Source of the DNA: Prochlorococcus sp. AG-402-I21
GTDB lineage: Bacteria > Cyanobacteriota > Cyanobacteriia > PCC-6307 > Cyanobiaceae
Length of the DNA stretch: 64,000 nt
Reading direction: 5' to 3'
Assembly (NCBI GenBank): GCA_003216955.1
Contig: QCHZ01000004.1
Coordinates: 1-64,000, forward strand
Shown here: piece by piece, positions 1,599-10,971 of the stretch
Layout of the letters: every line of letters begins with the position of its first letter
Numbering within the stretch: the stretch's first letter is position 1
Made by a program: the position numbers and the translations under genes
The notes under the pieces: model-generated
The model's database searches: none
Told to the model about the DNA's origin: nothing
The model's input: the letters and a program-made list of their open reading frames with translations, nothing else

Positions 1599-2672
1599 TT
1601 ATTTGAGTCCTTGAGGTGCCGTCTTTGTCCGAACCTTAAATTCCCAAACCGTAATGCCTCCATTTGCATTTATTGCAGCCAAGGCACTGTCATCAGGATG
1701 CCAAGCTATTTGGCTTACATGGTCACCTGCAAATGCACCACCAACTGGATCACCCTGACCATCTTTTTGGAGAAACCAAGAAAAAACTGAACCATCTCTG
1801 GCACCAGAAGCTAGAAGCATTCCGCTATGTGAGAAAGCAAGGCTAGAAATTGGTTCCGTATGAAGCATTAACTCTCCTGGCACAGTGCCCTCAGGACCAT
1901 TTCCTTGAAAACTCCAAACTGTCACTCGATCACTACCCCCGGTAGCTAGAACTGTGCCAGTTTGATCAAAAGCTAGATGTCTTGGTTTGCCTGGATATCC
2001 TGTCATCTCTGAATCTTCATCAGTTGAACGACGCCAAAAATGAACAGAATTATCCTGACTGCCGCATGCCACTATATCTCCATCTGGACTAAGCACCATA
2101 GATACTAGTGAACCTCGCCATTCCAGCTTTTGATTGACGTTGTCGCTAACTACATCAAAAAAACTGACTTGGCCATAGCATGCTGTTGCTAATTCATTTG
2201 AATTAGACCAAGCAATCGCGCTGACAGTACTGGGATGTTCCTCTGATCTCCAGTGCTCTTGACCTTTTTTATCAAAAACATATACATACTTACTAAAAAC
2301 TACTGCTAAGAATTTTCCGTCTTGGGACCACTTGATGTGCTCAACCCATCCTCTCCCAAGTTCCAAATTTTTAGTTGATTTACCCTCTTGACTTTCCCAT
2401 ATATACACATGCCCATCCTGGCCAGCAGTCGCAAAAGTATTGCCATCTGGATGAATAGACATTGCTAGTAAGCCACCTTTATGTATATCTTTCACTTGCC
2501 AAATGAGCTTCCCAGATTTCCCCTCAAATGCGTAAAGCCCACCAGCGACATCACCTACTAAAAAAGTTTTACCTTCTAGTGCCCAGCCGCAGACAATCGC
2601 ATAGTCGTCAACTTGAGTAGACCAACCTTCATGAAGCATTCCCTTGGGACTAAATGCTTCTATACCAGACAT
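1599..2672 (-). CDS. WD40-repeat beta-propeller protein, partner gene of the CobW GTPase
   Basis: This 357-residue protein consists almost wholly of WD40 blades of about 40-45 residues. Typical blade ends are KLIWQV, HVYIWES, SVHFWRR, RVTVWSF and ITVWEF, each preceded by an SPDG or HPDG turn such as IHPDGNTFATAGQDGHVYIW. About seven blades can be counted, enough to close a propeller. There is no signal peptide and no second domain, so it is likely a cytoplasmic scaffold. Its ATG lies 13 bases inside the end of the cobW-like gene, so the two are translationally coupled. Context suggests it organises zinc delivery with the GTPase, but no metal site is visible in the propeller itself. Confidence 0.85.
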   Translation of the reverse strand: MSGIEAFSPKGMLHEGWSTQVDDYAIVCGWALEGKTFLVGDVAGGLYAFEGKSGKLIWQVKDIHKGGLLAMSIHPDGNTFATAGQDGHVYIWESQEGKSTKNLELGRGWVEHIKWSQDGKFLAVVFSKYVYVFDKKGQEHWRSEEHPSTVSAIAWSNSNELATACYGQVSFFDVVSDNVNQKLEWRGSLVSMVLSPDGDIVACGSQDNSVHFWRRSTDEDSEMTGYPGKPRHLAFDQTGTVLATGGSDRVTVWSFQGNGPEGTVPGELMLHTEPISSLAFSHSGMLLASGARDGSVFSWFLQKDGQGDPVGGAFAGDHVSQIAWHPDDSALAAINANGGITVWEFKVRTKTAPQGLK

Positions 2673-4039
2673 TTGTCAAACTCCCTACTCATTTCTGCTT
2701 CATCAAGATTTCTACCGATAAAGACGAGTTGGTTGCGGCGAGGTTCATTGCCCCACTCTTTATCAGGTTGGGCGGTGAAGAGCATATGTACTCCTTGAAA
2801 AACTATTCGCCGTGACTCTCCCTCATAGCTAATGAATCCTTTCGTTCGGAATATGTCCACCCCTTTTTCAGATAAGAGCCTGTTTAACCACCTATTTAGT
2901 TTCTCTGGATCTACATCCCCTACTCTCTCGATAGCAATGGAGCCTACTTCGTCATCATGTTCGTGCTCGGCTACCCAAGTTCGCTCAGCTATTAGAGGAA
3001 TTGTTGAGTTCTGATTATTATCTATATCGTCCGTAGAAGAAGTATTTACTTTCGTTAATTTCATATTAAATTCTTCGGCTGTATGTTGAGTGAATAGACC
3101 TATATCCCTTGCCTTATCAACATCTATGAAGAAGGACTTAGTTCCTTTGGATTGAAGTTGAAGGCTCACATGCTTGCCGACTGGAACTATATCCCCCGGA
3201 TTCATAGGTTCTTCTTGTTCTGCGTAAAGTCTCACGCATGATTCAGCACCTGTGTTGAGAGCTGTCTCGTCTTTACCTTGGTCTAATAACAGGACGAGAG
3301 ACATTGTGGGGTCTGGACCTTCTTCAAGCGTTAGTTCATAGCGACCTTCTTCAAGTGCAAATACACCTGTCCACTCAAATGGGTATTCTGGTTCAAGAAA
3401 AGTTGGACGACGCTGAAGTACTTGATCTAGATCAAAAGCACTTAGATTTAGCACAGTATCAATTGAGACGTCTGCATGTTTACTGCGTATGACACGAGCC
3501 ATACGATTCATATCGCGTAGCCGTGACTCTAAGTTGTCGAGTGATTCATCTGAAACTAGATCAGTTTTATTTAGGACAAGGACGTCAGCAAAGGCAACTT
3601 GCTCCGAACTTTCATCACTTCGACCAAGTTGTTGCTCTATATGGGCTGCATCAACAAGTGTGACTATGCCATCAAGTGAAAACTCATCACGGATTTCGTC
3701 ATCCATAAAGAATGTCTGAGCAACAGGACCAGGATCAGCAAGGCCAGTAGTTTCAACTAATATATAGTCAAATTTGTCTCGCCTCTTCATGAGGTTTCCA
3801 AGTACACGAATAAGATCACCCCGAACGGTGCAGCAGATGCAACCATTCGACATCTCGAAGACCTCTTCGTCAGCATTGATTACTAATCCTTGATCAATAC
3901 CAACTTCACCATATTCATTTTCAATAACAGCTATTTTTTGACCATGCTCTTCGCTCAGGATTCGATTAAGTAAAGTTGTTTTTCCAGATCCTAGAAAACC
4001 AGTCAGTATTGTCACTGGTACTTTTTGCTTGTTGCTCAT
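2660..4039 (-). CDS. CobW/COG0523-family GTPase, putative zinc metallochaperone, with an inserted domain
   Basis: This is a G3E GTPase of 459 residues. The P-loop GFLGSGKTT is at residues 14-22. The metal-binding CxCC motif (GCICC) is at 66-70, the ETTGLADP switch region near 96-103, and the NKTD guanine-specificity motif at 157-160. The CobW C-terminal domain occupies about 365-455. COG0523 proteins are thought to insert metal, often zinc, into client enzymes. Residues about 221-330 are not part of the usual fold. They resemble the extra domain of the neighbouring ZnuA (FEWTGVF here, FEWAGVF there). A short HEHDD stretch near 359-363 adds ligands. It lies in a znuA-88aa-cobW-WD40 operon likely controlled by Zur. 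Confidence 0.92.
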   Translation of the reverse strand: MSNKQKVPVTILTGFLGSGKTTLLNRILSEEHGQKIAVIENEYGEVGIDQGLVINADEEVFEMSNGCICCTVRGDLIRVLGNLMKRRDKFDYILVETTGLADPGPVAQTFFMDDEIRDEFSLDGIVTLVDAAHIEQQLGRSDESSEQVAFADVLVLNKTDLVSDESLDNLESRLRDMNRMARVIRSKHADVSIDTVLNLSAFDLDQVLQRRPTFLEPEYPFEWTGVFALEEGRYELTLEEGPDPTMSLVLLLDQGKDETALNTGAESCVRLYAEQEEPMNPGDIVPVGKHVSLQLQSKGTKSFFIDVDKARDIGLFTQHTAEEFNMKLTKVNTSSTDDIDNNQNSTIPLIAERTWVAEHEHDDEVGSIAIERVGDVDPEKLNRWLNRLLSEKGVDIFRTKGFISYEGESRRIVFQGVHMLFTAQPDKEWGNEPRRNQLVFIGRNLDEAEMSREFDKCLV

Positions 4040-4099
4040 TTTCTTTAATTAACTTTGTGAACAATGAGAATTTTCAAGAGAAATATCAGTTAGCCAATT

Positions 4100-4366
4100 C
4101 TATTGGATACCCAATAATTCAAGTGATTTTAATTCAAAGTCATCAAGCTGATAATAGTTGTATGGAACTTTGACTCTTAATGTATGTTTTCCCTTCTCTT
4201 CTTTAAGAGAATGATTTGAAAATTGAAGTTCTTTTAGATTGTCACTGAAATTAGTTGAGATAGTAAGTTTTAAGATCTTGTCTTTATCCCATGGTGGTTT
4301 ATCCATGAAACCTGCCTGGTCTTCCCAATGTTGTTTGTAAGCTTTATATCCTTTGGTTGGAAACAT
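4100..4366 (-). CDS. hypothetical protein, 88 residues, within the zinc operon
   Basis: The frame runs from ATG 4364-4366 to a stop at 4100, between znuA (17 bases upstream) and the cobW-like GTPase (60 bases downstream), on the same strand. The 88-residue product is soluble, rich in Lys and aromatic residues, and has no signal peptide, cysteine or His cluster. Alternating hydrophobic residues in KILKLTISTNF and KHTLRVKVPYNYY suggest beta strands. I do not recognise a family. Its position makes a role in zinc import or delivery likely, perhaps as a small partner of the GTPase; that is inference from context. Confidence 0.7.
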   Translation of the reverse strand: MFPTKGYKAYKQHWEDQAGFMDKPPWDKDKILKLTISTNFSDNLKELQFSNHSLKEEKGKHTLRVKVPYNYYQLDDFELKSLELLGIQ

Positions 4367-4383
4367 TATTTAAACTTGAAAAG

Positions 4384-5901
4384 TTAAAGGTTAGTTAAGG
4401 AATTCCATTTATTCTCGAGTCTTTTACCCTCTTTTTCATCACATTCTCCACCAAGCGAATCAACAATTGTGCATGTGTTGTGTACTGCTACTGAAACAGT
4501 ATTCCCTTCTAGCATTAGACCATCAACAAAGATTTGATTTCTTGCGATAGGGGTGGAAGTTTGTCTACTCAAGTTTTTTAATAGCTTGGAAGGAGGCTTT
4601 TGCTCAGCGAATAAGACGTTCACGTTTTCTTCTTTGAGCTCAGCTATAACCGTTGAAATAGTCTCTGGTCTAAGGCTGGAAGAATCACCAAGGAAATCTA
4701 ATAGACTCAAAGTCTTCAAGCCAAATGCATCTCCGTAATATTCCATCGCTTTGTGCTTAGAAACGATTGTCCTTCGATCAGTAGGAATTGTGGCAACTTG
4801 TTTTTGAGTCCATGAGTCGAGATCTTCCAAAATAGAATTAACGGCTTTAGTTCTTTCTTTTAAAACCTTTTTTGTTTCTCTGTCAAAGAAGGAAATTTTC
4901 TTATTGATATTTTTAGAAATGACATTTCCCATCTTGATGATGTTATGAGGGTCATGCCAGATATGAGGATCTAGCCCACCATGGTCATGGTGATGATGAT
5001 GATCACCTTCATCTGGGACTTGAGCAATCGGTTCAACATCGCCGCCTGAAATATCCTTAAAGAAATGTTCGTCGGCTTCAAACTCAAAAGGCATATGCTC
5101 AGTAAAGAATGCATATTTACCAGCTTTTTTGATTTCTACAGTAAATGTAGTGATGTCTTTCTTCTCATTGAATGAAAGAAAATATGCTTTTTCCTGCGCA
5201 ACAAGTTTGTCATTATTGCGTTTGGTTTCTGAATCCTTAGATCCTAATAATTCTTTAGCAAGCTCTTCTGATGCTTCAATATCACCAGAATTGAGAATAA
5301 CCATTTTCATTGCAGGATCAGCATAGTCTCCATCGACTTTGGCAAAAGACCACTTGTATGTTCCTGCTGAAAGATCAAAAACACCAGCCCATTCAAAAGC
5401 TCCTTCTCCATGGCTATCACCATGATCATTGTGGTCATCATGATCGTCATGTTTAGCAGCTGAATGATCATCGTGGTCATTATCCTTAGCAGCTGAATGA
5501 TCATCGTGGTCGTCATGATGATCGTCTATTTCTATTGCACTTACACCAACGACAACAGTTAAGGGATTATCTAACCATTTTTTAATTGCAGGGGTCATCT
5601 CTGAACCAAGCGTAAATACTTGATTCGCACTTTTTAGTGTTTGAGCTTGCCTTGGAGTGATCTTGACATCATGAACATCTTGTTTTCTGTCAATTAAGCA
5701 GGTTACGGGCGTAGAGGGTGGTGCAATTGCAGAAACTACATCGCAGACTAATGGCTCTACAGCAACAATTGATTTTGAATTTGCCTGTGCGCTCTGATGA
5801 ATTCCCGAAAATAAAAATGCTCCAGCAAGAAAAGAGTTCTTAAGGACTGTTTTATTAAATATTGATTTGCTCTTGATGCGTTGATTGAACAATTTCGACA
5901 T
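4384..5901 (-). CDS. znuA: zinc ABC transporter, periplasmic binding protein with His-rich loop and extra domain
   Basis: The precursor has 505 residues, against about 300-350 for most ZnuA proteins. A signal peptide covers residues 1-40 and ends QSAQA. Cluster A-I metal ligands are recognisable: His77 (DVHDVKITPRQ), His313 (LDPHIWHDP) and His383 (SKHKAMEYYG). Two regions make it long. Residues 126-165 are a His/Asp loop with repeats of DHDDHSAAK, and HHHHHDH sits at 301-307. Residues 169-280 form an additional domain (FEWAGVFDLSAGTYKW, ending near FFTEHMPFEFE). A similar domain is inserted in the downstream CobW GTPase. It leads the operon and is divergent from znuC, with a Zur-like site between. 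Confidence 0.93.
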   Translation of the reverse strand: MSKLFNQRIKSKSIFNKTVLKNSFLAGAFLFSGIHQSAQANSKSIVAVEPLVCDVVSAIAPPSTPVTCLIDRKQDVHDVKITPRQAQTLKSANQVFTLGSEMTPAIKKWLDNPLTVVVGVSAIEIDDHHDDHDDHSAAKDNDHDDHSAAKHDDHDDHNDHGDSHGEGAFEWAGVFDLSAGTYKWSFAKVDGDYADPAMKMVILNSGDIEASEELAKELLGSKDSETKRNNDKLVAQEKAYFLSFNEKKDITTFTVEIKKAGKYAFFTEHMPFEFEADEHFFKDISGGDVEPIAQVPDEGDHHHHHDHGGLDPHIWHDPHNIIKMGNVISKNINKKISFFDRETKKVLKERTKAVNSILEDLDSWTQKQVATIPTDRRTIVSKHKAMEYYGDAFGLKTLSLLDFLGDSSSLRPETISTVIAELKEENVNVLFAEQKPPSKLLKNLSRQTSTPIARNQIFVDGLMLEGNTVSVAVHNTCTIVDSLGGECDEKEGKRLENKWNSLTNL

Positions 5902-5928: not shown

Positions 5929-5943
5929 CGATAATCATTTCCA
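5929..5943. promoter_or_regulatory. candidate Zur operator between znuA and znuC
   Basis: CGATAATCATTTCCA is an imperfect 7-1-7 inverted repeat of the AT-rich kind used by Fur-family zinc regulators (form TGAWAAT-n-ATTWTCA). It lies in the 92-base divergent spacer, about 28 bases from the znuA start and 51 from the znuC start, where one bound dimer could repress both. The match is weaker than the palindrome at 11235-11255. Confidence 0.6.
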
Positions 5944-5993
5944 TTCAAGATTGGCAAGTATATTATGTTTCTTGTCAGCAAACCCTTTGATTG

Positions 5994-6689
5994 ATGTCTA
6001 GTTTGATTGCTGAAAATGTGACATATTCCTATTCCAGTAATATCAAGCCTGCTTTAAGTAAGGTTTCTCTTAAGCTTGAGCCAGGTACTTTGACTGCTCT
6101 TGTTGGTCCGAATGGCGCTGGTAAGTCAACATTATTAAGCTTGCTGCAAGGAAGTAACACTCCGGATCAAGGAGAAATTACTGTTGACGGGAAACCATTG
6201 AGAAATAATCGATCTCAAGTGGCTTTAATGCCTCAGAGGGGAAAGCTGAATTGGAATTTTCCAATTACTGTTGAAGGATTAGTGTCTTTAGGTCGAGTAA
6301 ATCATTCCAAATCGACTTGTTGTGAATTAGAAGCTGCCCTTCAACGTGTTGGAATATCTCATTTAGCAAAAAGGAGACTGGATGCTTTGTCTGGTGGACA
6401 GCAACAAAGAGCATTACTTGCAAAAACATTAATGAATCCAGCCAAAATTTTTCTTCTTGATGAACCTTGCTCCGCCTTTGATCCTCCCGCTAAAGAAGAT
6501 TTCCTCTTAATCATTCGTCAGCTAGCCGATTCGGGATTAACGGTTTTTGTTAGTAGTCATGACTGGGGAACATCTTTAAATGCCTATGACAAGGTTGTTG
6601 CTTTAGATAAAATTATTTTGGCTTCTGGCAGCCCTCAGGAAGTTCAAGAAAAACTAAGTTCAATTAATTATTTGAGGTGGAAGTTATAG
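5994..6689 (+). CDS. znuC: zinc ABC transporter, ATP-binding protein
   Basis: This ABC ATPase has 231 residues. The Walker A motif is GPNGAGKST near residue 37, a Q-loop sits in ALMPQRGKLNWNFP, the signature is LSGGQQQRALLAKTL, and Walker B is IFLLDEPCSAFDP. The switch His is in VSSHDWG. The wording is that of the zinc/manganese (ZnuC/MntB) branch. It would power zinc import through ZnuB. A TTG at 5991 lies directly before the ATG; the ATG at 5994 is preferred. It diverges from znuA and is followed on the opposite strand by zur, then by znuB on its own strand. Confidence 0.93.
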   Translation: MSSLIAENVTYSYSSNIKPALSKVSLKLEPGTLTALVGPNGAGKSTLLSLLQGSNTPDQGEITVDGKPLRNNRSQVALMPQRGKLNWNFPITVEGLVSLGRVNHSKSTCCELEAALQRVGISHLAKRRLDALSGGQQQRALLAKTLMNPAKIFLLDEPCSAFDPPAKEDFLLIIRQLADSGLTVFVSSHDWGTSLNAYDKVVALDKIILASGSPQEVQEKLSSINYLRWKL

Positions 6690-6712: not shown

Positions 6713-7117
6713 TTATCCAGCATTAAGTTGCTGAGAACAATTTTGGCAGAGACCAAAGTACTCAAGAGTATGAAACAAAAGCTCAAATTTTTTAGAAGTG
6801 TTTTTCGACAGATCCATCATTTTGACCGGACATCCCTTCAAGCGTGTGGTTTCTCCACAGCTTACGCAAGTTAAATGATGAATATCTCTTTCAACTGGCG
6901 CATAAAGAACCTCACCATTGGGAAGATGTCTGGAACGAATCAAACCTTGCTTTACTAGTACTTGCAGGTTTCGATAGACCGTGGTCAGTCCCATTGCCTT
7001 TTCACCATTATGAAGTTGTCTATGCAGTTCTTGCCCACTCAATTCATCAGTACATTTCTTGAGCTCATTGAGCAGTTGCTGTTGGCGTCTAGTGATTTCA
7101 GGCTTGCTTTTACTCAT
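6713..7117 (-). CDS. zur: Fur-family zinc uptake regulator
   Basis: This Fur-family repressor has 134 residues from the ATG at 7115-7117 (MSKSKPEITRRQQQ). A longer frame to 7153 adds only 12 atypical residues. The winged-helix domain covers about 1-80, with the recognition region MGLTTVYRNLQVL. The dimerisation domain has the DIHHLTCVSCGET segment and two CxxC pairs (CVSC and CQNC) that form the structural zinc site. Placement between znuC and znuB makes Zur far more likely than ferric Fur or PerR. It is on the strand opposite to both transporter genes, so a znuC-znuB transcript would run antisense through it. Confidence 0.87.
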   Translation of the reverse strand: MSKSKPEITRRQQQLLNELKKCTDELSGQELHRQLHNGEKAMGLTTVYRNLQVLVKQGLIRSRHLPNGEVLYAPVERDIHHLTCVSCGETTRLKGCPVKMMDLSKNTSKKFELLFHTLEYFGLCQNCSQQLNAG

Positions 7118-7170
7118 TAGCAAGATCTTAACTTGATCTCTCTTCCTGACCATACTGAATCATTGGCTTA

Positions 7171-7956
7171 ATGTCTTTTTTCAATACAAATTGGTGGATA
7201 ATTCCTCTTTTGATAACTTCCTTTTCAGGAATACTTTGCCCTGCCATGGGAACTGTATTGATCACTCATAAAAGGCTTCTTCAAGTTAATTTAATTTCGC
7301 ATTGTGTGCTGCCAGGTCTTGCTTTGGCTATGGCGCTTGGTTTGGACCCTTCTATTGGTGGAGTCATCAGTGGCTTGGTAGGAGCTATTGCAGCAGAAAG
7401 CTTGACAAATAAAAAAAATCAAAATTATGAAGCAGTTATGAATACAATTCTTGCTGGTTCGATGGGACTCGGTGTTTTGCTTATACCTCTACTGGGTATC
7501 AGGATTGATTTGGAGGCTGTTTTATTTGGAGATTTATTAACTGCAAACTTGAGTGATCTGCTAAGAACGTTGATCGCTTTCTCGGTATTTATTTGCTTAA
7601 TGCTTTTTGGTTACGACAAGCTTGTTCATATTGGTTTAGATCCAGAAGGAGCTGCTTCAAGTGGAGTTAATGTATCTTTTTTAAATTTGGCTCTTGGTTT
7701 TACTACGGCACTTGTCATTGTGAGTTCAATGTCTGCAGTGGGAGTCATTCTTGTGATTGCGTTACTTTCAACCCCAACTTTGTTGGGATTACAGAAAGCA
7801 AGATCTTTATGGATTGCGATGGTTAGATCCTCCATATTTGGATTGATTTTATCTCTTATAGGTTTTTCTCTTGCCATGATGTTGAATTTGCCTCCTGGTC
7901 CTTTGATTAGTGTTCTTTGTGTGATTTCATTGATTTTGCTACCAAATAATAGATAG
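7171..7956 (+). CDS. znuB: zinc ABC transporter, permease
   Basis: This is an ABC-3 family integral membrane permease of 261 residues with seven or eight hydrophobic segments. Near the N-terminus, CPAMGTVLITHKRLLQVNLISHCVLPG matches the family's conserved opening. Later, SAVGVILVIALLSTPTLLG is the coupling region and GPLISVLCVISLILL the last membrane span. It would form the zinc channel driven by ZnuC. Its ATG at 7171 is 53 bases from the divergent zur start. No convincing Zur site is visible in that gap, so it may depend on read-through from znuC. Confidence 0.92.
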   Translation: MSFFNTNWWIIPLLITSFSGILCPAMGTVLITHKRLLQVNLISHCVLPGLALAMALGLDPSIGGVISGLVGAIAAESLTNKKNQNYEAVMNTILAGSMGLGVLLIPLLGIRIDLEAVLFGDLLTANLSDLLRTLIAFSVFICLMLFGYDKLVHIGLDPEGAASSGVNVSFLNLALGFTTALVIVSSMSAVGVILVIALLSTPTLLGLQKARSLWIAMVRSSIFGLILSLIGFSLAMMLNLPPGPLISVLCVISLILLPNNR

Positions 7957-8867: not shown

Positions 8868-9311
8868 TTAGTTAGGGTTGATATGGATTGCACAAGGCAT
8901 CCATAATGCACCCATCTTATGGACACCATTGCATCCGATCTTTTTGGCTTCGATCTCTGCCTGAGCTTTAGTTGGATATGCATATATATTTTTTGAAGAA
9001 GGAGAATGTGAACGATCGATTGACTCGTGAATAGCATTATTTTCCGGACTCCACACCTTTAGACCCATAGTTGTTATTCCTGCAGAAAATATTCCCATTC
9101 CTACTATTGAGGCATTAACGACTCCCATCGCTACTACGCCTATAGAAACGACACCCATGGGAACAATCCCAATGGTAACAATTCCCATGGGAACAATTCC
9201 AATGGATATAAATCCGAGTGGTGCTATCCCAAATGCAATTTTTTTTGGTTTACTTCCGCAATGAGAAGGACTTTCGGAATGGTTCTGATCGGTACTATTT
9301 GAATTTGTCAT
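8868..9311 (-). CDS. DUF3721 protein with decapeptide hydrophobic repeats
   Basis: The 147-residue product has three parts. Residues 1-25 are polar. Residues 27-83 are about six copies of a ten-residue unit of the form GIVPMGIVTI. The C-terminal part, residues 108-143, is a DUF3721 domain with KAQAEIEAKKIGCNGVHKMG and a final WMPCAIH. The two cysteines (127 and 140) and histidines are the family's conserved polar residues. The glycine-rich hydrophobic repeats suggest a membrane-embedded or stacked beta structure. A second DUF3721 gene lies immediately upstream on the same strand, only 12 bases away. A metal-binding periplasmic role is inferred from its neighbour's His tail. Confidence 0.8.
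   Translation of the reverse strand: MTNSNSTDQNHSESPSHCGSKPKKIAFGIAPLGFISIGIVPMGIVTIGIVPMGVVSIGVVAMGVVNASIVGMGIFSAGITTMGLKVWSPENNAIHESIDRSHSPSSKNIYAYPTKAQAEIEAKKIGCNGVHKMGALWMPCAIHINPN
9154..9205. repeat. 30-base in-frame tandem repeat
   Basis: Two 22-base blocks beginning CCCATGGGAACAAT (9154-9175 and 9184-9205) lie 30 bases apart and differ at one position. They encode two of the ten-residue units of the protein on the minus strand. Flanking units are diverged at DNA level but conserved in protein, pointing to old duplication with a recent copy. Confidence 0.7.
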
Positions 9312-9323
9312 TATCTAACAATA

Positions 9324-9563
9324 TTAGTGATGATGGTGATGCCCATCATGAGATTCATGATCTGTATGACTTTTGCAAGGCATCCATTTATCTCCCATCT
9401 TATGAGCTCCAGTACAATTGAAATTTTTTGCTGCTTTTTCAGCTTCTGCTTTCGTTTCAAAAAGTGCAGGAGTTCCGTTTGTTTGGGAATTACCTGAGCA
9501 TCCCATCAGTGAAAACGACATAGAAATAATGATGGCGGTGAAAATAGGCTTGAGATTGTTCAT
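9324..9563 (-). CDS. His-tailed DUF3721 lipoprotein
   Basis: From the ATG at 9561-9563 the product has 79 residues. The first 21 form a lipoprotein signal peptide and the lipobox is SLMGC, with Cys22 acylated. Residues 33-66 are a DUF3721 domain (FETKAEAEKAAKNFNC, then GAHKMGDKWMPC) with Cys50 and Cys63. The tail HTDHESHDGHHHHH holds eight histidines and probably binds zinc or another transition metal in the periplasm. An upstream in-frame ATG at 9680 would add 39 residues but bury the signal peptide, so it is rejected. It is followed by a paralogue 12 bases away and is divergent from a His-rich outer-membrane gene. Confidence 0.82.
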   Translation of the reverse strand: MNNLKPIFTAIIISMSFSLMGCSGNSQTNGTPALFETKAEAEKAAKNFNCTGAHKMGDKWMPCKSHTDHESHDGHHHHH

Positions 9564-9638
9564 CTTTCTAGGTTTATCTAGTTCGTCTAGTTTTAGGTTA
9601 ATTAAAGAGTGAACCTTGTCAGTAAAAGACCTTGAATA

Positions 9639-9680
9639 TTTGTAGTGAAAAGCACATAATCTTTGTAGCGAAAAGGACAT
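9639..9680. repeat. imperfect direct repeat, operator-like, in divergent promoter region
   Basis: TTTGTAGTGAAAAGCACAT (9639-9657) is repeated as TTTGTAGCGAAAAGGACAT (9662-9680), 17 of 19 bases identical, 23 bases apart (about two helical turns). It lies between the divergent DUF3721 lipoprotein gene and the His-rich outer-membrane protein gene, where a shared regulator would bind. It does not resemble a Fur-family box. Confidence 0.65.
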
Positions 9681-9762
9681 CTCTTATCGCTCTCGCAAGT
9701 GTTTGAGGTTAAATTCGTATCTGTATATAGTTTTACTAGGTTGACTAGTATTTGTGAGATCT

Positions 9763-10971
9763 ATGAAGCTCTTTTCGCGATTACTCTTGATTCCTGCTGT
9801 GTTCGGTTTAATGGCTCCAATGGCTGTTGAAGCAGGAGGTGGTGATCATAAAGGTCATCATGATCACCATGATAGTCATATGAAGATGGGGGATTCATAC
9901 CCTTCGACTATGTTTATGGGTAAAACGACTTTTGTTTTGGGTGGAGTAGATGGCGTAAGCGATTCTGGAATGGGAGGAATGGGAGGAATGGGAGGAATGG
10001 GTGGAATGGGTGGAATTTCTTCTTCTGGGGACAAGGATGGGACAGTTTTTCATTACGATACAAAGCTCATGTTTATGACCAGTTTTACTGGCCAAGACAT
10101 GCTTAAGACTGCTGTTCGCATAGGTAATTTTGGGATGATGGAGCCCTTCGGGATGATGGGTGAGGCAAGATTAGATACTGCTTTCAGTAGTAGTGATTCG
10201 TTAGAACTTCATAAGGCTTATTACCAATTCCCTGTTGGAGACGATATTCAAGTAACTTTTGGCCCCAAGCTTCGTCAAGATGATTTGCTTGGTGCGTGGC
10301 CAAGTGCTTACCCAGGTGATGGAGTCTTGTTTGTACTAAACCAGGCCGGAGCCAATGATACTTATTCCAAAAAAATGGGAGCGGGTGCTGGTATTACTTG
10401 GTCCCATGAAAAATTAGTTGCTTCTGCACTCTTCGTTTCAGAAGACGCATCAAACTCTTCGATTGGCTTCTTAACTGATGACGGTAAAGATCACATAACA
10501 ACTCAGTTGGCATGGGTTGATGAGAAATTTACTCTTGCAGCTGCATATACACAGGCGGATAACGGGAATACTGACAACTCTCCTGATGTTAACGACTACT
10601 CTTCTTTTGGGGTTAGTGGTAGCTATAAATTTGGAGATGACTATAGCCTGAGTGCAGGAATGGGATGGAAAAATCCTGATAATGAGGATAACCCTGATAC
10701 TGCGATGAATAAGGTGGAGAATGGTAATACATGGTCTGTTGGATTCTTATGGAATGATGCGTTTGTTGAGGGAAATAAGTTTGGTTTTGGCATTGGATCA
10801 GCCGAAACTCATAGAGATGACAGTGGCTATGACGATCCTTTAGCTTGGGAGGTTTTTTATGATTTCAAAGTGAATGATAGCGTTATAGTTACTCCAGCTG
10901 TCTTTGTGATCGAGAAAGATGGTAAAGAAGATGTTAATGGAGCTTTGGTGAAAACCACTTTCGAGTTCTGA
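9763..10971 (+). CDS. His-rich outer-membrane beta-barrel (porin-like) protein
   Basis: The preferred ATG at 9763 gives 402 residues with a clean signal peptide (MKLFSRLLLIPAVFGLMAP, ending VEA). An in-frame GTG at 9754 adds three residues. After cleavage comes a His cluster (DHKGHHDHHDSHMKMGD, residues 28-44), then a GGM repeat at about 70-84. The rest shows alternating polar/aromatic strands, many with Gly and Asp turns, and ends in Phe (VKTTFEF), as expected of a beta barrel inserted by BamA. I cannot see an SLH domain. In the zinc island it could admit or capture zinc at the outer membrane. Barrel identity is fairly secure, substrate inferred. Confidence 0.77.
   Translation: MKLFSRLLLIPAVFGLMAPMAVEAGGGDHKGHHDHHDSHMKMGDSYPSTMFMGKTTFVLGGVDGVSDSGMGGMGGMGGMGGMGGISSSGDKDGTVFHYDTKLMFMTSFTGQDMLKTAVRIGNFGMMEPFGMMGEARLDTAFSSSDSLELHKAYYQFPVGDDIQVTFGPKLRQDDLLGAWPSAYPGDGVLFVLNQAGANDTYSKKMGAGAGITWSHEKLVASALFVSEDASNSSIGFLTDDGKDHITTQLAWVDEKFTLAAAYTQADNGNTDNSPDVNDYSSFGVSGSYKFGDDYSLSAGMGWKNPDNEDNPDTAMNKVENGNTWSVGFLWNDAFVEGNKFGFGIGSAETHRDDSGYDDPLAWEVFYDFKVNDSVIVTPAVFVIEKDGKEDVNGALVKTTFEF
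9967..10011. repeat. 9-base tandem repeat, five copies
   Basis: GGAATGGGA is repeated five times without gaps (the last two copies end in T) inside the outer-membrane protein gene, encoding Gly-Met-Gly units. Such a tract is prone to copy-number change by slippage while staying in frame, so the length of the flexible linker may vary between strains. Confidence 0.9.

Follow-up and report, generated by a model that had tools for sequence, protein, structure and literature searches.

What could one and the same extra segment do in two proteins that belong to different compartments of the cell? This question is raised by a locus of Prochlorococcus sp. AG-402-I21 (genome 1.73 Mb, 96% complete), in which a ZnuA-type substrate-binding protein (SBP) and a CobW GTPase encoded close to it both carry an insert outside the usual folds of their families. 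The locus lies in a stretch of 64,000 nucleotides (contig QCHZ01000004.1, positions 1 to 64,000; GC content 38%), which was analysed as a whole and is called the window here. On the minus strand, the genes stand in the order SBP (5901-4384), an open reading frame (ORF) of 88 aa, GTPase (4039-2660) and WD40 protein (2672-1599), and ZnuC, a Fur-family regulator and ZnuB are encoded on the other side of the SBP. The close relatives of the window are Prochlorococcus single-cell genomes, the GTPase reaching 91% with L124. The two carriers and their relevant parts are as follows.

2660..4039, minus strand: COG0523/CobW GTPase, 459 aa, with the insert (module) between the G domain and the CobW_C domain
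3044..3397, minus strand: module in the GTPase, residues 215-332, placed by alignment, profile and model evidence
3374..3376, minus strand: Glu222 of the GTPase, the first of four conserved polar residues, one residue before module strand 1
3311..3313, minus strand: Asp243 of the DPxM motif of the GTPase, two residues before strand 3
3083..3085, minus strand: His319 of FTQH of the GTPase, two residues after the last strand
3071..3073, minus strand: Glu323 of the EF pair of the GTPase, conserved in the aligned copies
4384..5901, minus strand: cluster A-I metal SBP (ZnuA-type), 505 aa, matching PF01297 at 1.7e-46 in two stretches
5056..5415, minus strand: module in the SBP, residues 163-282, in which E170, D195, H269 and E273 are the equivalents of the GTPase residues
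5410..5526, minus strand: His/Asp-rich loop preceding the SBP module, residues 126-164, read from the sequence, with 33-nt direct repeats and a predicted local distance difference test score (pLDDT) <50 at 120-166
4975..5013, minus strand: His-rich run after the SBP module, residues 297-309, just ahead of the DPHIW ligand His313

The two inserts are homologous, as judged by comparison of their sequences. Both ORFs were found where the original prediction, made by a model from the DNA letters, had placed them, and the segments which it had named as additional to the usual folds are indeed left uncovered by the Pfam domains of both host proteins. The motifs that it had described, FEW(T/A)GVF, DP-M, FFT(E/Q)H or LFTQH and an EF pair, are present in both proteins in the forms FEWTGVF/FEWAGVF, DPTM/DPAM, LFTQH/FFTEH and EEF/FEF. 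The inserts are identical at 32 of 112 positions by BLASTP, and their alignment was scored at 91 versus 27.0 +/- 4.5 for shuffled sequences (5000 shuffles, maximum 57; z about 14). Two profiles that share no row, one built from 12 copies of the SBP form (A5) and the other from 32 of the GTPase form (A6), were matched by hhalign over 111 columns with a probability of 99.8 and an E value of 1.4e-29, the significant profile-profile match expected for a shared domain. Chance resemblance is ruled out by the shuffles and by this match. When the genome itself was searched with the SBP insert (E up to 10), these two copies only were obtained.

AlphaFold2 models of the full-length proteins were made from alignments without common rows, and in both of them the insert is predicted to be a beta-sandwich-like module of about 115 residues, composed of strands, one helix and again strands. 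In the GTPase the strands were placed at 223-229, 232-238 and 245-252, the helix at 258-272 and the further strands at 277-279, 290-294, 301-307 and 311-317; in the SBP the strands were placed at 171-177, 180-187 and 197-203, the helix at 208-219 and the further strands at 225-227, 232-243, 250-257 and 261-267. The two predicted structures thus agree, as had been anticipated, in having an identical order of elements (compared by that order, without superposition). The pLDDT per block was 90-97 in the GTPase module (221-330) and 73-92 in the SBP module (171-270), and the whole-protein models were weaker, with means of 83.9 and 72.9, respectively. In both models a Glu stands one residue before strand 1, an Asp two residues before strand 3 and a His two residues after the last strand. 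The lists of Foldseek and VIA matches from the full-protein models were filled by the host domains: VIA matches to the GTPase model cover residues 4-218, and the ranges of those to the SBP model span the insert with 244-260 of 505 residues aligned.

For the determination of conserved positions, copies were extracted from 220 loci and the window, giving 165 distinct full-length copies (49 partial-match proteins were left out). Trp9 and Gly11 (profile numbering) are invariant in the full-length copies. Glu8, Asp29, His106 and Glu110, which correspond to Glu222, Asp243, His319 and Glu323 of the GTPase and to Glu170, Asp195, His269 and Glu273 of the SBP, respectively, form a set that is complete in 160/165 copies, in 73/77 copies from outside the pattern-seeded scan described below and in 60/65 copies after 70% redundancy removal. 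A variant form was seen in Verrucomicrobiota, where, in 17 of the 20 genomes with a match, strands 2 and 3 of the GTPase module are separated by a long loop rich in His at the site of the Asp motif, probably through few independent events. Such a loop is in keeping with a metal role. Long His-rich loops in the module were noted in the Verrucomicrobiota CobW proteins L182 and L184-L199.

The module is not limited to the znuA/cobW pair of the window and is more general than the original prediction supposed. In the pattern-seeded scan, 84,980 genomes gave 563 confirmed places, and among the best 80 of these 563, which were used, 79 hold a CobW protein with the module and one (L105) holds an SBP. 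Sampled cyanobacterial genomes had the module in 31 of 386 cases with the GTPase query and in 8 of 146 with the profile. Sampled whole-genome searches, in which the phylum is that of the named centre genome and the centre is included, gave 20/194 genomes for Verrucomicrobiota, 7/52 for SAR324, 10/151 for Chloroflexota, 9/149 for Acidobacteriota, 2/398 for Pseudomonadota and 1/198 for the phylum of a Desulfobacteraceae metagenome-assembled genome (MAG). Since it was found in few sampled genomes of many phyla, the module is widespread but sporadic. In cyanobacteria, the SBP form was accompanied by the GTPase form in all 22 genomes that carry it, and 9 of the 31 genomes with the GTPase form have it alone. 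Beyond the cyanobacteria, G392 and G1030, which are possibly incomplete MAGs, gave the SBP form while no GTPase form was detected in them.

When the carriers of the 165 copies were counted by best match, as had been suggested with the prediction, 121 were CobW-like, 40 SBP-like (both numbers inflated by near-copies from Prochlorococcus and Poribacteria) and 4 of other kinds, i.e. three haloarchaeal lipoproteins and one Alicyclobacillus membrane protein; in 26 further loci all carriers were CobW or SBP. Searches of plasmid records by tblastn gave the module in 11 records. Its carriers there are haloarchaeal metal SBPs (L209, L214, L215 and L218), three CobW-type copies (two from Pantoea and one from Paraburkholderia), small haloarchaeal proteins (L210, L212 and L213) in which an RR...lipobox signal (signal and lipobox read by eye) is followed by little else than the module with one His-rich stretch on each side, and the Alicyclobacillus membrane protein (L211), in which the module lies between membrane segments and whose gene neighbours are cation transporters and regulators of metal type. 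All carriers observed either are proteins of metal type or have metal genes next to them, with two exceptions: the lipoproteins L210 and L213 lack metal genes nearby, so that only their His-rich stretches connect them with metal. As the module recurs among metal proteins from distantly related bacteria and archaea, we regard it as a probable reusable part for metal handling.

Some further observations were made on these plasmid records. L211 was suspected to be a NicO/RcnA-type transporter from HSILPDHW, which we take to be a motif of that type, and was left as an unassigned membrane protein after Pfam gave nothing significant. The stand-alone module lipoprotein of L212 (Natrinema plasmid, 3875-4426) directly follows ureG, ureD, ureE and ureF, a possible nickel link. 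L216 (Haloarcula halophila plasmid) has a second, truncated module-bearing SBP gene at the record end, with upstream genes as in the first copy. In L217 (Pantoea soli plasmid, about 4000-4700) the gene with the CobW-type module copy is split into short reading frames, and genes for a nickel transporter and a repressor lie close by, as does zigA. An ORF of about 73 aa for a hypothetical protein stands between SBP and ABC ATPase in all three annotated haloarchaeal operons (L209, L214 and L215).

Among SBPs, the module was found on backbones of different kinds. For eight module-bearing SBPs, 24 of the 28 pairs have cores 24-32% identical and modules 37-72% identical; identity between the window SBP and the SAR324 SBP L178 is 62% for the module and 29% for the core, and between the SAR324 proteins L177 and L178 it is 72% and 28%, respectively. 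The core of L178 matches ZnuA chains at 1e-66, the N-part of L177 matches 8svc and AztC chains, and the window SBP matches PsaA-type chains at 7e-17. A single clade for the 14 module-bearing SBP cores was rejected (approximately unbiased test, p-AU 8.6e-6) in a tree of 37 SBP cores, which is a quick tree where long branches meet and where the starred branches alone force only two changes. In the SBPs read, the module stands in the His-rich loop, immediately ahead of the DPHxW-type ligand, and is flanked by His-rich sequence before it, after it or on both sides. Two modules in tandem occur in the SBPs of G161 (no N in the sequence), L133 and L176. A further two-copy SBP of G223 (873 aa; L008/L024) was dropped, its halves being joined across a run of N. 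The opposite state is found in G219, of the window's family, whose syntenic SBP (371 aa; 218/360 aligned residues identical to the window SBP) has the His-rich loop and no module, and in G358 of the same family, whose module-free SBP is nearly identical to that of G219 (358/371); both keep the GTPase form. His-codon repeats flank the window SBP module on both sides (four 20-nt copies, 70-80% to the reference), and such repeats could help the gain and loss of the module.

The identities of the two host proteins were determined by family searches. The GTPase matches the Pfam families cobW at 8-184 (5.1e-62; 209.1 bits versus a cut-off of 20.7) and CobW_C at 366-458 (5e-25; 87.6 bits versus 22), its Walker A (GFLGSGKTT) and CxCC (C67-I-C-C70) motifs are invariant in 34 aligned relatives, and it has the WD40 neighbour by which COG0523 subfamily 5 is recognised. 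In the SBP, H77, H313, H383 and E433, which we take to be the metal ligand positions of the family, are invariant in 14 aligned rows. The window SBP scores below the NCBIfam ZnuA equivalog cut-off (70.2 bits versus 268), above which the module-bearing L178 lies (295.8), and below that of ZrgA (24.7 bits versus 185), the residues concerned (87-166) belonging to the His-rich run rather than to the module. A ZinT-type accessory domain was not recognised by Pfam in the window SBP, PF01297 being the only family at E up to 1. The presence of one domain in two compartments, as originally predicted, is upheld for the homology, and the compartments are assigned from the families and from the N-termini read by eye, signal-peptide-like in the SBP and without a signal peptide in the GTPase.

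With these results it is reasonably probable that a portable module, carried by unrelated metal proteins, binds a divalent metal, most likely Zn2+, through the Glu/Asp/His/Glu set. At one end of the strands, this set would hold the metal. Within the flexible His-rich loop of the SBP, the module would be an on-board collector, picking up metal from the His-rich runs and delivering it to the adjoining cleft of three His and one acid. The GTPase module, placed with the CxCC-bearing G domain on one side and the C-terminal domain on the other, would keep or accept metal that is then handed over in a GTP-driven step. Precedents for such a mechanism are AdcA with its second zinc domain (PMC7858048) and the delivery of zinc to SBP loops by ZinT and AztD (PMC6689063). 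A wider reading is held more tentatively, at slightly under even chances, i.e. that a so far undescribed family of metal-binding domains is a general plug-in for metal hand-over outside the cell, in the membrane and inside the cell of bacteria and archaea, which moves between unrelated backbones through His-rich loops and is gained, doubled and lost. The existence and mobility of the domain are well supported, and its chemistry is a good guess. The homology, the order of the predicted elements, the carriers, the slot, the conservation and the gain and loss are established. The zinc-binding or zinc-sensing role suggested at the outset is backed by the kinds of carrier found, and metal binding, the metal concerned and its hand-over are what we infer.

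Several results weigh against the reading as a metal site. Part of the conservation of the four residues is by construction, because the scan patterns contained FEW, TQH and EF, i.e. three of the four. The set is not universal, because the Verrucomicrobiota variants with the His-rich loop end in FTGHDVPTHF or FEGCGEDPLHIH types of sequence in place of TEHxPxEF. The module is not always the slower-changing part, because in 3 of the 28 SBP pairs it is less alike than the core (L133/L105, 40 versus 53; L105/L176, 42 versus 52; L133/L176, 87 versus 92). It is also dispensable in G219 and G358, because their SBPs have His-rich loops without it.

Whether the two window inserts arose by local copying of a segment of one gene into its neighbour was considered together with the history of the module. 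In favour of such copying, the genes stand two ORFs from each other within a single operon-like run. In a tree of 51 copies (bootstrap not quite settled), however, the SBP and GTPase forms fall on the two sides of one branch with a support of 100/99, and the nearest relatives of each window copy lie in like carriers of other genomes, i.e. a Dehalococcoidia CobW copy (62%) as the nearest other relative of the GTPase copy and SBP copies for the SBP copy, so local copying is very improbable. The window copies are old relatives and not recent copies of each other. A tree of 58 rows that included archaeal copies joined the lipoprotein copies with the SBP copies of bacteria and archaea at 98/98, and the Alicyclobacillus copy fell outside this group, among the GTPase copies. 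One passage between inside and outside therefore explains most of the history; the trees are unrooted and give no direction.

Three other functions were compared with zinc binding. That the module serves cobalt, nickel or whichever first-row metal its host needs is possible but rather unlikely: haloarchaeal SBP operons lie beside CobW-like GTPases, a cobalt-factor II methyltransferase and cobalamin or energy-coupling factor (ECF) genes, the stand-alone copy of L212 follows urease genes, and the picocyanobacterial Zn- or Mn-type SBP CK_1600, which may or may not be the window SBP, is described as responding to iron stress and competing with cobalt (PMC8786288). The bacterial context is, on the other hand, of the ZnuABC and Fur/Zur type, 35 of the 54 loci at least 8 kb long containing a gene for an SBP or for a Fur-family member, the SBP L178 exceeds the ZnuA cut-off, and subfamily 5 COG0523 genes are linked to Zur sites (PMC2770081). 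It is unlikely, too, that the module is a docking or dimerising domain for finding a partner, itself without metal. Portable beta-sandwich domains often mediate contacts, loops of ZnuA dock ZinT, the loop of AztC takes zinc from the propeller protein AztD (PMC6689063), and a WD40 gene, a typical interaction partner, is next to the module-bearing cobW gene in 69 of the 76 loci with enough downstream sequence, a conserved pairing. However, no WD40 neighbour was seen for the SBP forms in haloarchaea and SAR324, a common docking partner is hard to name because the carriers sit in different compartments, and an invariant set of three acids and one His with His-rich neighbours fits metal better. Binding of a metal-ligand complex or another small molecule in place of the bare ion is improbable; beta-sandwich folds often bind small ligands and 2 of 17 copies gave weak, non-significant CBM_35 matches (best E 0.085), but these are at noise level, as are matches to eight other unrelated families.

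No significant relative of the inserts was found in Pfam, NCBIfam and PDB sequences, which accords with the earlier statement that the domain has no standard name. The best Pfam E value among 17 module copies was 0.0058 (APH_6_hur, 4 members), taken as noise, and the nine Pfam families matched by the inserts, none of them of ZinT type, were all at noise level. Among viral sequences, 37 pattern matches in IMG/VR contigs contained no relative of the module, and phage records gave no match; in a viral fold library, the SBP model had no match at E 0.001 and the GTPase model had five, of which four are unnamed or named as GTPase or translation factor and none points to the module. ZCRP-B, of the diatom proteins ZCRP-A/B, stands outside the module-bearing SBP family because it is described as NikA-like (PMC9010474).

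The association of CobW, WD40 and znuABC genes was described in 2009 by Haas et al. (PMC2770081), and what appears to be new is the module itself; no such inserted domain is named in the literature searched, which does not prove that none has been described. The window GTPase is like COG0523 subfamily 5 (PMC2770081) in its cobW and CobW_C domains, CxCC, WD40 neighbour and znuABC neighbourhood, a likeness by domains and neighbours and not by tree; in the available text of that paper the C-terminal region is called highly variable and an inserted domain is not mentioned. Cluster A-I zinc SBPs (ZnuA, AztC, AdcA N-domain) share with the window SBP the PF01297 fold, the His ligands and the His-rich loop before the DPHxW ligand, whereas here a whole extra domain, sometimes two in tandem (L010, L133 and L176), lies in that loop. 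AdcA of Streptococcus pneumoniae (PMC7858048) is also an SBP with its own accessory zinc domain, a ZnuA-type domain being fused to a second one, but that domain is C-terminal and the module is inside the loop. AztD (PMC6689063) is a periplasmic helper which delivers zinc to the SBP loop of AztC and often has CobW genes near it; it is a separate propeller protein, whereas the module is small and built in. The Anabaena zinc exoprotein ZepA (PMC10957091), compared by description only, is likewise sporadic, near COG0523 genes and predicted to have a beta-sandwich domain, but it is a stand-alone PEP-CTERM exoprotein.

The remaining features of the neighbourhood are as follows.

1599..2672, minus strand: WD40 beta-propeller protein (Pfam WD40, 1.3e-30), whose start overlaps the cobW end by 13 bp
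4100..4366, minus strand: 88-aa ORF between znuA and cobW, without a family match, which may not be a gene
5991..6689, plus strand: ZnuC-type ABC ATPase by family match, divergent from znuA
6713..7153, minus strand: Fur-family regulator, probably Zur (PF01475, 2.1e-17)
7171..7956, plus strand: ZnuB-type permease, ABC-3 (PF00950, 1.8e-42)

The regulator is assigned as probable Zur because of the locus context. The WD40 protein of the window has no signal peptide by eye. The best candidate for a Zur box in the znuA-znuC gap, at 5929-5943, has three mismatches to TGATAATNATTATCA, presumably the Zur box motif, and was not accepted as evidence: 17 matches of this kind were found in the window versus 8.8 expected, and 17 were reached in 3 of 100 shuffles. 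No inverted repeat was found in this gap. Near the metal locus, two adjacent small DUF3721 (PF12518) proteins are encoded on the minus strand (8868-9311 and 9324-9680), of which one ends in a His-rich tail and the other has GLTT repeats. They are followed on the plus strand (9754-10971) by a protein of 405 aa that has an N-terminus rich in His and Met, matches nothing in Pfam and is perhaps an outer-membrane porin; an ORF adjoining the znuABC-type genes of G221 matches this 405-aa protein.

Marine picocyanobacteria live in a habitat of very low zinc. According to PMC8786288, it has yet to be settled by which SBP they are supplied with zinc or cobalt, and a domain present on either side of the membrane within a single locus is a concrete part that can be tested. 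If the module binds metal, it would represent a new family of metal sites, with the module-free SBPs of G219 and G358 as a natural control, and it would provide the COG0523 GTPases, which have long been studied and are still little understood, with another candidate site for metal in addition to CxCC.

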